The translations under genes were made by a program, and so were the position numbers. The notes beneath the pieces were generated by a model, which worked only from the letters and a program-made list of their open reading frames with translations, was not told where the DNA came from and ran no database searches. A stretch of DNA of 48,321 nucleotides from Leptolyngbya sp. DLM2.Bin27. Its GTDB lineage: Bacteria > Cyanobacteriota > Cyanobacteriia > Phormidesmidales > Phormidesmidaceae. Each line of letters starts with the position of its first letter. Within the stretch, counting starts at the first letter, position 1. The stretch lies in NCBI GenBank assembly GCA_007694115.1, contig RECJ01000310.1, forward strand, positions 1 to 48,321, in the 5' to 3' direction. This document shows positions 7,633 through 46,571 of the stretch, piece by piece.

Positions 7633-8431
7633 AGGACACTCAAAATAGGGGATATAAATAGTCTCAAACCAGCCAGGCTAACTCCTTAAATCGTGATCCC
7701 TAAAAGAAAAAGCAAATATTGAACTTGATTTTAGCTAAAGAATATTCACTATCTACTGGCTAAAAACTAGCCTAGTCGTTATGGTGCTGCCTGTAGACTA
7801 ACAGTCCCAGGCTCAGATCATCCAGTAGCCAGGGCCAACTTAATGAATTAGCTGGTCGAGTAATAGGCCACTCATAGTGGCTATCAAAATTAGCTTAACC
7901 CGGGTTGCCAAGAGTTTTGGGCAGTAGGTGTCAGATTTAGAATTGGCCGACTTAGGCCGCATAATAATAGTGATCGGTCGCAAATGGGTGATGGAGTCGC
8001 AGTCAATTAAAATAAATTAATTTGCTCTAACTCTAGAATTAGAGTTCTCCCTATGGGGAAATTAAAATTTCCAAATAGACTTGATATATAGGGATAGATG
8101 AGCCAAAAAACTTCATAATAAAATTACATTAATAAAGTAATTTGAGCGCTAAAATCAGGCGTCTACTGATGCAATGTCGATGCAATAATAGCATCAAGAC
8201 GTTTTTGGTTCAGATCGAGTTGAGATCGGGGCTGGGCATAGGTAAGGGCGCTGCTTCATCACCCTTACTCAGAAAAATTTCCCGATCAGGATAAATTTCA
8301 AAAAAAAGATCGATAAAAAGATCGATCTCCAGATTTCTATGTGGAGTTGCTAAAGCTATGGCCATTTTGTAGAGGGTCATCTATCCCTGTGATTGCATGG
8401 AGATATCTAGGCTAGTACTCCTCGCTTGTCA
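7633..8431. promoter_or_regulatory. AT-rich 800-bp divergent control region
   Basis: No gene is visible between the divergent cellulose operon and the lipoprotein gene, and base composition drops sharply to AT-rich. Two palindromes stand out: AACTCTA-gaat-TAGAGTT at 8029-8046 and GGAAATT-aa-AATTTCC at 8057-8072. A direct repeat AAAGATCGAT occurs at 8305-8314 and 8317-8326 with a 12-bp period. These are plausible regulator sites. The promoters themselves could not be fixed with confidence. Confidence 0.45.
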
Positions 8432-9154
8432 ATGACTATGTCACTGCCCCAAATTTTACTGGTGCTTGTCTTACTCACCTGCCTGGGCTGCCAGGCGGCG
8501 CTGCCCCCAGGGTCGCCGCCAATTCCAGAGGCAACCATGCTTACCCTAGAGGCGACCGCCCTGGGCAACGGAGAGTTTGATCTGGCGGGCACCACCAACC
8601 TGCCCCCCAATACGCCCCTGGCCGCCATTGCCCTGCGATACTTAGACCCCGAAACTGCGGTTGTGGCCGAGGCCGATGCTCTATACTCGGTGCTGGCCTA
8701 CCAGCCCGTCACCGTAGGCGAAGGTCAGTGGTCGGCCCGATTGGTAATCTGGCAAGTCGGGGCCGATGGCCGCTACCAAGAACCCTGGCAGGCCCAGACC
8801 GAAGCGCTCAATTTAGCCGCCCAACCCCAGGAAACCGTCCAGTTTGCCATTGCCCTAGCGCCCAACCACCTCGGGGCCCTGGGCGATGTGCTGGCCTCAA
8901 CGGGGCGGCGGCGCGTGGCCGGGGTCCTGCGAGTGACCTCTGGCGGAGAGCCGTTTCTATGGGCCGCTCAGTCGCTGCCCGTGGGTCTACCCCAGGGGCA
9001 GACCACTCCTCCCCCAGACTGGCTAGCGCGCACCAATGGCGGCTGGGGGGCTCGCTATCTGATGGTGCCAGAGCCACCTTTGCCCTATGTCCTCACCCCA
9101 GAGGATACGCGCCAAACTACCGCGCCCCTCACGCCGGCAGAGGTGCTGCGCTAG
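8432..9154 (+). CDS. Predicted lipoprotein of unknown function
   Basis: This protein of about 240 residues has a lipoprotein signal: a short hydrophobic stretch LPQILLVLVLLTCLGC ending in a good lipobox (TCLGC), so it should be lipid-anchored at the cell envelope. The remainder is beta-rich with Pro/Ala/Gln, including LEATALGNGEFDLAGTTNLP, which resembles an immunoglobulin-like or carbohydrate-binding fold. No enzyme motif was recognised. Starts at TTG 8426, ATG 8432 and ATG 8438 are all possible and none has a clear ribosome binding site. It is divergent from the cellulose operon and convergent with the glycoside hydrolase gene at 9370. A cellulose-related role is only a neighbourhood guess. 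Confidence 0.6.
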   Translation: MTMSLPQILLVLVLLTCLGCQAALPPGSPPIPEATMLTLEATALGNGEFDLAGTTNLPPNTPLAAIALRYLDPETAVVAEADALYSVLAYQPVTVGEGQWSARLVIWQVGADGRYQEPWQAQTEALNLAAQPQETVQFAIALAPNHLGALGDVLASTGRRRVAGVLRVTSGGEPFLWAAQSLPVGLPQGQTTPPPDWLARTNGGWGARYLMVPEPPLPYVLTPEDTRQTTAPLTPAEVLR

Positions 9155-39447: not shown

Positions 39448-39505
39448 GGGTATGACCGCCAAGCAGGCCCCGGCAAAGCACATGTAGCAAGCAATGGAGT
39501 CAACT

Positions 39506-40516
39506 ATGGAATCCTGGCGCTGCGATCCATACCTGTGGATACACCTAGTCGGCGTGGCTACGGTGCCCCTGTGGATCGACCTGTGCCTGCTGGGGCTGGC
39601 GGTGGCCACCCCAACCCTGCCGGGGCTAGAGCTGGGGTTGATTGTTGCTCTGGGGGTATTGCCGGTGCTGGTCATGCAGCTGCGCCGCCCCTTCTACATC
39701 TTTAGCCTGCCGGGGTTGGCCTTGCGCCCTGGGGCTTTAAAGGACGATCAGCTGCGGTTGCTGACTCAGTTTCGGCGGTGGCGGGTACGGCTAGGAGCGC
39801 TGCTGGTGCCGGTGCCGCTGGTGTGGGTCTTGGTGAAACTCTATCCCCTGGCCTTTTTAGCCCGCGAGTTTAGCCCTTTTGGCGGCTGGGGGCGGCTGGG
39901 GGGAATTGCGATCGCAGTTCTAGGCTTTTTTCTGGCCAACCTATTTCTCCAGGTGCCGGTGGCAGTACTACAGGTGATGGCTACCCCAGATCGTCGAATG
40001 CAGACCGTTGCCCCCTACCCCGCCGACCAAATTGCCGCTAGTTTTACCTGGTTTGGGTTGTCAGTGGGCAAAATTTTGCCTGACCTATTGCTTGTAGCTA
40101 CTACCCGGCCCGTAGTTGAGCCCCTGGCCGAAAACTTGGCCGATCTCGATTCTATGGTTGATACCAGTCAAACACTGCCCTCCCTAAGCCCGCTTCAGTC
40201 GATGTCCGCTCTACCTGGGCCACCTTCAGAGGCAGCAGCGGTGCCAGAGAAGCCAGAGGAAACGCCGTCGGAGGAAATCGCAGCGACTGTTTCGCCCAAT
40301 GCGGCGGTGCGGCATTTCGATCTAGCGGAGCCTGAGACTGTCTGGGGGCAGGTTCCGCTAGCTGATGACTCAGAAATCCACAGGCTGGACGAAGGTCGGC
40401 CAGAGTCATTGATCTGGTCACACCAATCAGATCAGATAGACAGCTCGTCTCAACACGAAGTATCGGGGCAAGACGGCAGAACAGCCACATTACCTCCCGT
40501 ACCTGTGGATATCTAG
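39506..40516 (+). CDS. Low-complexity-tail membrane protein (cyanobacterial family)
   Basis: About 336 residues. The N-terminal half is a membrane domain starting MESWRCDPYLWIHLVGVATV with four to five helices. The C-terminal half is soluble and low-complexity, rich in Pro, Glu, Ala and Ser (for example PEKPEETPSEEIAATVS). This fits a cyanobacteria-restricted group known as low-complexity tail membrane proteins, whose function is not known. ATG 39506 is preferred over 39494 because it matches that family's start and has GGAG 6 nt upstream. It follows infB by 58 bp and may be read from the same transcript. Confidence 0.78.
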   Translation: MESWRCDPYLWIHLVGVATVPLWIDLCLLGLAVATPTLPGLELGLIVALGVLPVLVMQLRRPFYIFSLPGLALRPGALKDDQLRLLTQFRRWRVRLGALLVPVPLVWVLVKLYPLAFLAREFSPFGGWGRLGGIAIAVLGFFLANLFLQVPVAVLQVMATPDRRMQTVAPYPADQIAASFTWFGLSVGKILPDLLLVATTRPVVEPLAENLADLDSMVDTSQTLPSLSPLQSMSALPGPPSEAAAVPEKPEETPSEEIAATVSPNAAVRHFDLAEPETVWGQVPLADDSEIHRLDEGRPESLIWSHQSDQIDSSSQHEVSGQDGRTATLPPVPVDI

Positions 40517-43777: not shown

Positions 43778-44782
43778 CTAGGTTTGCTGGCGGGGGTTCC
43801 AGCGCGATCGCTGTTCTTCGATGTGCATCGTTGCCTCATTCTTTTTGAGATGCCGGGGGCTGCTTTCAAACGACAGCGATGAAGGCAGGGCCTCTGGCCC
43901 ATAGGCCGCTCGCACAAACGCCGCCACATCAACATAGGATGGCGAAAAAACCGCGTCTTCTGACGAGGGCAAAGCGAGGTACGACCTCAGCGCGGCGGAA
44001 AACAACCCTGATCCATCGTCAAAAAAGCGCTCTGTGGTGGCTCCGTATTGGTCATAGGGGTAAAACGACAGATCTGCCGGGGCCTGGGCCGCCACCCAAG
44101 AGGCATAGGCCCAGTATTCGCTAAAAGTGCCAAACTCATTGGCCGATCGCATCATCAGCAACAGCCAGTGGCTATTGGTTTGGTAGTGGCTGTTGAGCTG
44201 GCGCTTAAAGGTGGCCAGGTGCTCTTGCTTAAACCACATGTGGTGCGGAATAAACGTGCCCTCCGGGTCGGTGCAGGGCTCGACCTCCAGCACTGAGCGA
44301 ATCCACTTGGCCCAGGTTGCCACAATGGCGGCATTGCCCCACTGGTTGTGCTGAAGCAAGGCAAATCGATGCTGGAGGCTAGACTGCTGCTCTTCAACTA
44401 GGGGCCAGGTGGCCACGGGCAGTAAATCACTGTCCCAAACCACATACCATTCGCTGAGATCGGCAATGCCTTCTGCTGCGCCCAGCTTGAGCAACTGCTG
44501 GTAGAACCAGCCCGGCGTATAGAGCGATGTGCCCAGATCTAGCTCGGCACAAATGGCGTCTTTGGTAAAGCCGCAGCCCTCAAAAAACGATTCTTCGCCG
44601 TGGGTAAACAGGCTGGCAACCTGCCAGGTGCTCGCTTTGTCTTGCAGGGCCTGGGCCTCCTGCTCTGGGGCAATGATATGAATGGCCCTGGGGGCGTAGT
44701 GGGTCGTAATGCCCTCTAGCACTGCCTGGGTATTCCAGCGGCAGCGGTAGAGCGGAATGACCACATCAAACTGGTTTGCCAT
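43778..44782 (-). CDS. DUF6492/glycosyltransferase-like protein
   Basis: The 334-residue soluble protein begins with a beta strand (FDVVIPLYRCRWNTQAVLEG) and has YVVWDSDLLPVATW at about 113-126, where WDSD resembles the DxD metal/nucleotide-sugar motif of GT-A glycosyltransferases. The rest is rich in Trp and Tyr, including HHMWFKQEHL and SEYWAYASW, as in the DUF6492 group of glycosyltransferase-like proteins. It starts 19 bp after the cyclase-like gene and is surely co-transcribed with it. I infer sugar transfer onto the cyclase product; acceptor and donor are unknown. The fold assignment is moderate. Confidence 0.65.
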   Translation of the reverse strand: MANQFDVVIPLYRCRWNTQAVLEGITTHYAPRAIHIIAPEQEAQALQDKASTWQVASLFTHGEESFFEGCGFTKDAICAELDLGTSLYTPGWFYQQLLKLGAAEGIADLSEWYVVWDSDLLPVATWPLVEEQQSSLQHRFALLQHNQWGNAAIVATWAKWIRSVLEVEPCTDPEGTFIPHHMWFKQEHLATFKRQLNSHYQTNSHWLLLMMRSANEFGTFSEYWAYASWVAAQAPADLSFYPYDQYGATTERFFDDGSGLFSAALRSYLALPSSEDAVFSPSYVDVAAFVRAAYGPEALPSSLSFESSPRHLKKNEATMHIEEQRSRWNPRQQT

Positions 44783-44801: not shown

Positions 44802-46571
44802 CTATACGGTTGACAGGGTTTGGGTCGGGTTGTGGTAGGTCGAGTCTAGCCCCACCGGAATGTGGGCCACCGTAGAGGGATCTTCGAGCCCGACATCGCT
44901 ACAGAGGGGATCGATGCCAATGCCCCGTCTGGGGTAGGTGGCGCAAATGTCTTGGTAGGCGGCGATCGCTTCATTTAGCTGATCCCGAGTTAGATCGTTG
45001 AGATACCCACATTGCCCAATGTCACCCTTAGGCAGGGGCACCACTAGATTGCCGCCGCGCTTCTGGACGATTTTTTCTTGGGCGGCCCACAGCGTGTCTT
45101 GATTCAGCAAAATGTCGTGCCAGAGGCTGAGCCCAAAGGAGTCGATCAGCCGCAGAATGCGGTGAAACGCTGCAGCGCTAATCCAGTTTAGGCGATGGCT
45201 GAGGTAGGCCCCAAACCCCATGCCAATGGCTACCGCGTGGCCGTGCAATAGCCCAGCTTCGATCTCAAACCCCGGCGACCAGGTGTGGCCGTAGGCGTGG
45301 GGGCGGCACTGATGGGTCTCGTAGAGGTTGTCGTATTCGGCCTCTACGTAGCTGCGCATGGCGGCACCCAAGATTTGCTGAGATAGCTGGCTGATGCTGT
45401 CGCCGGGGTGGCAGTGCATGGTGCCAAACCGTGAGGTGACGAGCTCGGGGCCAGCTTGCTCTAGGTAGCCAAACAACGCGGCATTTTTAACCACAGCCAT
45501 TTTGATGATCTCGGCAATGCCGTGGCGCAGCCAGCCTTCGTGCAGGGTCTTAAAAAATGAGCGATCGGTAATCGATAAAATGGGTGCGTGGTAAGCCCCA
45601 AAGAGATTTTTGTAGCCAAAGCCATCGCAGCAGGTGCGAGGGGATGGGCCAGCATCAATCCCCGCCACTACGGAGGTAGAGATCATCACATAGGGGGTGT
45701 TGCGGTGATACAGGGCGCAGGCCAGACCGCCGGTATCGGTCAGCACCCCACCACCGATAATCAGCACGGGCTCATGGCGGGCTACCCCAAGCTGCTTAAA
45801 GTCACCGAGCATGCGCTCTACGGTGTGGATGCCTTTGTCGACTTCCATAGCCCGATAGACCAGCTTCTCTAACTGAATGCCGTGGTGGCAAAAGTAATGC
45901 TCAATCTGCTCACCGTAGTAGCTGTCGACGTTTTGATCGACCAGGCAGACGCAGCGCCCGAGGGTTAGGTAGGTGTCTTTTAAGACAGGCTGCTCAGGAT
46001 CGAGCACGTTCTCTAGCACTTTAATCGAGGTGAATGTGCTCGAACTCATCACCGCTTCAATGGTCTGATCGTCGGCTGTGCTCACCACATGGCCATGGCT
46101 TTCGCGATAGCTAGAGGTGGGATAGATGGCGTGGGGGTTGGTCTCAACTAAACGCAGGGCCAGCTCTTGGTAAAATGCCTGCTCTTGACTGGCCAACAGC
46201 TGCCTTAACAACTTATGGCCACCCAGGTCAGAGGCTTGAACTCGGCTGGCAAAAGCTGACCAATAGACCCCAGCGGCGACGTTAAAGGCCGCAATCAACT
46301 CGGCTAGTAGGGCAAAGAAACTCGCCTGAGACAAATTCAGACAGCTACGCAAACGGCGACAGGCAGCCAAGCCCTGAATTGCCCCTAGGGCAGCAAATTC
46401 TTGCCCTAGTTTGGGTGAAAAGACCTGGCAATCAACGAAGCAAAGCAGAAGATCTTTGAATGCAGGGTGGCGATAAATGGCTTCAACGGCATGGTCTAAG
46501 TCTGGGTAGACCAAAAGCTGGCTGTCATAGGTTTCGATAAAAGCCGCAACCGCCGAGGTAGTTTTCGTCAT
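44802..46571 (-). CDS. Sugar-phosphate cyclase (DHQ synthase/SH7P cyclase superfamily) with extra N-terminal domain
   Basis: This is a 589-residue protein. Residues about 185-560 show the cyclase fold: GGGVLTDTGGLACALYHR (273-290) for NAD, GIAEIIKMAV with metal ligand Glu354, HAYGHTWSPGFE with His429, and LLHGHAVAIGMGF with His443. TWSP and HGHAV recall sedoheptulose-7-phosphate cyclases, which make C7 cyclitols (valiolone or deoxygadusol types). The loop that in most relatives carries an active-site Lys reads IDAGPSPRTCCDGFGYKNLF here (305-324). About 170 extra helical residues precede the core; typical cyclases are about 400 residues. It is followed by the glycosyltransferase-like gene. The product is unknown. 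Confidence 0.82.
   Translation of the reverse strand: MTKTTSAVAAFIETYDSQLLVYPDLDHAVEAIYRHPAFKDLLLCFVDCQVFSPKLGQEFAALGAIQGLAACRRLRSCLNLSQASFFALLAELIAAFNVAAGVYWSAFASRVQASDLGGHKLLRQLLASQEQAFYQELALRLVETNPHAIYPTSSYRESHGHVVSTADDQTIEAVMSSSTFTSIKVLENVLDPEQPVLKDTYLTLGRCVCLVDQNVDSYYGEQIEHYFCHHGIQLEKLVYRAMEVDKGIHTVERMLGDFKQLGVARHEPVLIIGGGVLTDTGGLACALYHRNTPYVMISTSVVAGIDAGPSPRTCCDGFGYKNLFGAYHAPILSITDRSFFKTLHEGWLRHGIAEIIKMAVVKNAALFGYLEQAGPELVTSRFGTMHCHPGDSISQLSQQILGAAMRSYVEAEYDNLYETHQCRPHAYGHTWSPGFEIEAGLLHGHAVAIGMGFGAYLSHRLNWISAAAFHRILRLIDSFGLSLWHDILLNQDTLWAAQEKIVQKRGGNLVVPLPKGDIGQCGYLNDLTRDQLNEAIAAYQDICATYPRRGIGIDPLCSDVGLEDPSTVAHIPVGLDSTYHNPTQTLSTV

Follow-up and report, generated by a model that had tools for sequence, protein, structure and literature searches.

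An ATG-initiated open reading frame on the minus strand (44802-46571) of the 48,321-nucleotide Leptolyngbya sp. DLM2.Bin27 stretch that we analysed (the window) encodes a 589-aa protein. The reading frame, Pfam, alignment, a tree and an AlphaFold2 model (pLDDT 86.8) together identified it as an N-extended, PSPRTC-type sugar phosphate cyclase resembling DDGS/MysA (desmethyl-4-deoxygadusol synthase), which forms the ring of mycosporine sunscreens. Its core matched Pfam DHQ_synthase (E 1.2e-17) and DHQS_C, and both Pfam and NCBIfam label it 3-dehydroquinate synthase (DHQS). Around 30 full-length homologues carry both the unusual active-site loop and the N-terminal extension, and comparison with close relatives gave dN/dS values of 0.07-0.10, so the protein is neither a chance reading frame nor an artefact. 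We looked for phage carriage of the cyclase and found none. The cyclase gene is followed on the same strand, after 19 bases, by a gene for a 334-aa DUF6492 protein (43778..44782, minus strand; family match and predicted fold), a partner missed in the earlier reading; the two genes are presumably co-transcribed. Elsewhere in the window, a 340-aa reading frame lacking a Pfam match (39494-40516, plus strand) sits between infB and a polynucleotide phosphorylase-type gene.

Residues 1-150 of the cyclase (46122..46571, minus strand) were confidently predicted to be all-helical (pLDDT ~92). The helical extension originally predicted thus stands, but its proposed length of 170 residues shrinks to ~150, because the structural match to DDGS begins near residue 157. 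Profile searches returned no family match for this domain, and both fold searches of the whole cyclase produced match lists filled by the cyclase core. EboA was considered as a source and rejected, giving neither an HMM nor a profile-profile match; an EboA match is also absent from the window genome. The domain was likewise rejected as a free-standing family: besides chance-looking matches at E 0.001-0.01 it occurred only fused to PSPRTC-type cyclases, with the exception of one 113-aa copy in Cf. Phormidesmis sp. LEGE 11477 (L115:9127-9468, minus strand). That copy, from which the cyclase core is missing, lies 128 bases upstream of a DUF6492 gene (7970-8998, minus strand) and may represent either decay or a free-standing N-domain. 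The extension probably acts as a structural or interaction module.

Alignment placed the active-site loop, IDAGPSPRTCCDG, at residues 305-317 (45621..45659, minus strand; I305-DAGPSPRTCCDG-317). It bore out the original description of an altered, lysine-less loop, as the superfamily lysine is replaced by Arg312: where DDGS carries the lysine of IDA(S/G)VAIKVAVN, the window cyclase has this arginine within GPSPRTC. The loop asparagine is replaced by Asp316, a change restricted to branch 1 of the family (see below), and the K321-N322 pair following the loop is retained. Residues 313-319 were modelled with low confidence. The metal ligands proposed earlier, Glu354, His429 and His443, aligned with the invariant E/H/H of DHQS, DDGS and EEVS.

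For the remaining active-site positions we compared what we take to be the fingerprint residues of EEVS (Asp281/His360) versus DDGS (Ala268/Thr347), and the presumed DHQS residues His275 and Asn268; both sets were consistent with the 4p53 and 5tpr alignments. DDGS position 268 (Asp281 in EEVS) is matched by A426, and together with W431, E412 and H445 this residue is in the DDGS state and differs from EEVS, while Pro433 is in the sedoheptulose 7-phosphate cyclase state and differs from DHQS. Thr347 of DDGS is not matched; Lys504 occupies this position across the PSPRTC clade, where it is fixed along with Arg312 and the two-proline loop. Since the exchanges of lysine for Arg312 and of Thr347 for Lys504 set the protein apart from DDGS, identity of their products is not guaranteed.

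The best PDB match was 5tpr (DDGS, Ava_3858; 35% identity, Z 50.7 over 396 residues), followed by ValA (34% identity, Z 44.0). With DDGS (MysA) the window cyclase shares the fold, the E/H/H ligands, A426, Trp431, the HGHAV motif and Pro433, and its relatives are grouped with MysB and MysC. In contrast, identity is only 35-40%, PSPRTC stands in place of VAIKVA with arginine for lysine, Lys504 in place of Thr347, and both the ~150-residue helical N-domain and the DUF6492 partner are additional. A maximum-likelihood tree of the cores that included DHQS, DDGS and EEVS united branches 1 and 2 (support 100/100) and placed this PSPRTC clade as sister to DDGS/MysA (100/99), separated from it by a long branch and apart from EEVS and DHQS; the tree holds no EVS or EboD rows and some outgroup rows are on long branches. 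The window cyclase therefore falls inside neither the ordinary DHQS nor the DDGS clade, and because the loop lysine, Thr347 and the clade placement of DDGS are all missing we did not class it as a DDGS. EEVS has the same sedoheptulose 7-phosphate cyclase fold and likewise Pro433 where DHQS has histidine, but membership was ruled out by Ala426 and Lys504 at the Asp281 and His360 positions and by the tree. Arg312 (for the GGK-loop lysine), Pro433 (His275), Ala426 (Asn268) and the tree ruled out DHQS in the same way. The idea of a distinct cyclase class consequently gains a well-supported clade outside DHQS and Ava_3858-type DDGS, with an altered loop and a fused helical domain. Its supposed closeness to 2-epi-valiolone synthases was not upheld, DDGS being nearest by sequence, fold and a tree without an EVS row. 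The window cyclase, a member of the sister clade, most likely works like DDGS. Our literature search found neither a clade member with a published product nor a paper on an N-extended MysA.

Among 386 cyanobacterial genomes searched, 43 contained a match at E ≤ 1e-60, and these cyclases sort into three sets: branch 1, which carries both the extension and CCDGFGYKN (67-76% identity); branch 2, which has no extension and whose loop reads, for example, CTNG..FKN (43-45%); and Ava_3858-type DDGS with VAIKVAVN (37-40%). PSPRTC-type cyclases were present in 18 of the 386. A GTDB scan yielded 27 named branch-1 loci, mostly from Leptolyngbyaceae, Nodosilineaceae and Pleurocapsales, the nearest relatives being Nodosilinea and Shackletoniella (90-93%). 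An N-extended cyclase (53% identity) within a mycosporine-type operon was also seen in a proteobacterial MAG, Methylococcaceae bacterium TMED69 (L074); no other was found among 398 Pseudomonadota genomes sampled.

Gene order ties the clade to mycosporine synthesis. All 11 branch-2 loci that were read adjoin genes for an O-methyltransferase and for an ATP-grasp protein resembling MysC, and nine of them also MysD. The branch-1 cyclase lies inside a MysB and MysC operon at four loci (L068, L071, L073 and L074). Eight further genomes (G368, G121, G070, G391, G394, G401, G402 and G403) keep mysB-mysC at a separate locus that lacks an adjacent cyclase gene, and no DDGS-type cyclase other than the N-extended protein was detected in any of them. 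No Ava_3858-type DDGS was detected in genomes that combine mysB-mysC with a PSPRTC cyclase. MysB and MysC from branch-2 and the four branch-1 loci are 46-100% identical to the L038 copies and orthologous to those of DDGS-type operons; the proteins of G284 (DDGS type) are 63-68% identical to the L038 copies. The product, left open in the original prediction, is thus less open than proposed, given close relatives that either belong to mycosporine operons or provide the sole DDGS-type cyclase where mysB-mysC is present. MysB and MysC were not found in the window genome, and since this assembly is 86% complete their absence rests mainly on the relatives described below.

Inspection by eye of these operons revealed additional genes. 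Several branch-1 mycosporine operons have a second methyltransferase-like gene (FDLMLTFVKSQC...) after mysC (L068:14123-15175, L071:14239-15327, L118:7194-8252, L121:5768-6868, L122:8940-9992 and L123:560-1636). A small HAD-hydrolase-like gene accompanies mysB-mysC-mysD at L073:7539-9016, L074:13136-13846 and L120:3735-5241, followed in two of the three cases by a dioxygenase-like gene.

DUF6492 is encoded directly downstream of the cyclase in 22 of 32 distinct branch-1 genomes, the window included. Eighteen of these 22 lack MysC, three possess it, and one has a MysC fragment together with a branch-2 cyclase; the distribution of MysB mirrors that of MysC, so that the same fraction (18/22) is without both. 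The other ten comprise one genome with an unlinked DUF6492 gene and a mycosporine operon, eight with MysC only, and one whose locus is cut by a contig end. Apart from this last genome, every one of the 32 carries DUF6492 or MysC. Isolates that have the cyclase-DUF6492 pair but neither mysB nor mysC include Nodosilinea sp. LEGE 07298, whose cyclase is 93% identical to that of the window, Xenococcus sp. PCC 7305 and ESFC-1. In the 386-genome sample DUF6492 orthologues were found in five genomes, all with a PSPRTC cyclase, although four of the five co-occurrences are adjacent gene pairs and hence not independent. The DUF6492 gene of G320 is unlinked and the cyclase there belongs to branch 2; in G408 DUF6492 is preceded by a 113-aa N-domain copy, the intact cyclase being part of the mycosporine operon. 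Both arrangements suggest that the product of a mycosporine cyclase is usable by DUF6492. Cyanothece sp. SIO2G6 (G395, L058) has a branch-1 cyclase with DUF6492, a branch-2 cyclase and, at the edge of a contig, a fragment of MysC.

The DUF6492 model predicted, at moderate confidence (pLDDT 75.9), a GT-A-like nucleotide-sugar fold. Its matches included CpsY (Z 13.1), GlcNAc-1-phosphotransferase (Z 12.6), XXYLT1 and LARGE1; sugar-nucleotide pyrophosphorylases have a similar fold too, at lower Z. A DxD motif, D117-S-D119, is invariant across 23 rows. With the predicted fold and its best matches, this makes transfer of a sugar or sugar phosphate the most likely function. Glycosyltransferases of mycosporine amino acids are known: MysG, of family GT4, glycosylates the finished compounds, and MysJ is a second such glycosyltransferase (PMC11378024). 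DUF6492 would resemble them in a putative sugar transfer within a mycosporine-type pathway, but its family is a different one, for which a GT-A-like fold is predicted, and it is mostly found where MysB and MysC are missing. We found no paper on DUF6492.

On balance we favour a pathway in which the DDGS-like cyclase converts sedoheptulose 7-phosphate to a product, probably desmethyl-4-deoxygadusol, that is then modified by the DUF6492 protein, probably through addition of a sugar. The cyclase, with NAD+ as cofactor and with E354, H429 and H443 binding a divalent metal, would oxidize the substrate, eliminate phosphate, reduce the intermediate and close the ring; Arg312 stands in the loop where a phosphate-binding lysine is usual. 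A dehydration as in DDGS would follow, yielding desmethyl-4-deoxygadusol or a closely similar C7 cyclitol. The DUF6492 protein, and not MysB/MysC, would take the following step in the window genome and in most of its relatives, with a nucleotide sugar probably donating a sugar (or sugar phosphate) to the cyclitol. Elsewhere, cyclases of this kind would supply the mycosporine pathway, and no alignment column distinguishes those linked to mycosporine genes from the DUF6492-only ones.

A less likely alternative is that PSPRTC cyclases convert sedoheptulose 7-phosphate to a C7 cyclitol other than desmethyl-4-deoxygadusol, on which the downstream enzymes of the operon act. Arg312, Lys504, the two-proline loop, Asp316 (in branch 1 only) and the long branch to DDGS are consistent with this, yet branch 2 and four branch-1 loci are embedded in mycosporine operons with orthologous MysB and MysC, and genomes combining mysB-mysC with a PSPRTC cyclase show no Ava_3858-type DDGS. 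It is improbable that the window cyclase forms a valiolone-type product: ValA as second-best structural match and the fit of a pseudosugar to a glycosyltransferase partner argue for it, whereas the EEVS residues Asp281 and His360 are replaced by Ala426 and Lys504 and EEVS is excluded by the tree, which has no EVS row.

Enzymatically dead cyclases, serving as a binding or scaffold partner wherever DUF6492 is linked, appear similarly improbable. The poorly modelled loop and the L115 genome, which retains just the 113-aa N-domain beside DUF6492, would agree with such a role, but neither the metal ligands nor the other catalytic positions are lost, and dN/dS is as low as given above. Moreover, no alignment column splits the DUF6492-only from the mycosporine-linked members, and of 33 selected active-site positions 30 are identical throughout both groups. 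A divergent DHQS of the shikimate pathway, as the Pfam and NCBIfam names imply, is hardly credible given scores far under the aroB cut-offs, a separate ordinary DHQS in the genome (G000:C203) and the replacement of His275 and Asn268 by Pro433 and Ala426.

Under the favoured pathway of a DDGS-like cyclase followed by DUF6492, the pairing suggests a sugar-linked, sunscreen-like product. More tentatively, cyclase and DUF6492 may constitute a two-gene replacement for the mycosporine amino acid pathway, in which a cyclase with arginine in place of lysine leads to an undescribed glycosylated or sugar-phosphate-linked cyclohexenone sunscreen. General libraries file the core under 3-dehydroquinate synthase and assign no function to DUF6492, and such pathways are therefore easily overlooked. 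The clade would represent a second lineage of mycosporine-type cyclases that annotation keyed to the usual lysine loop would overlook. What makes it most interesting is its association with DUF6492 where the amino acid ligases are absent: in most branch-1 genomes DUF6492 would be the partner enzyme that replaces them.
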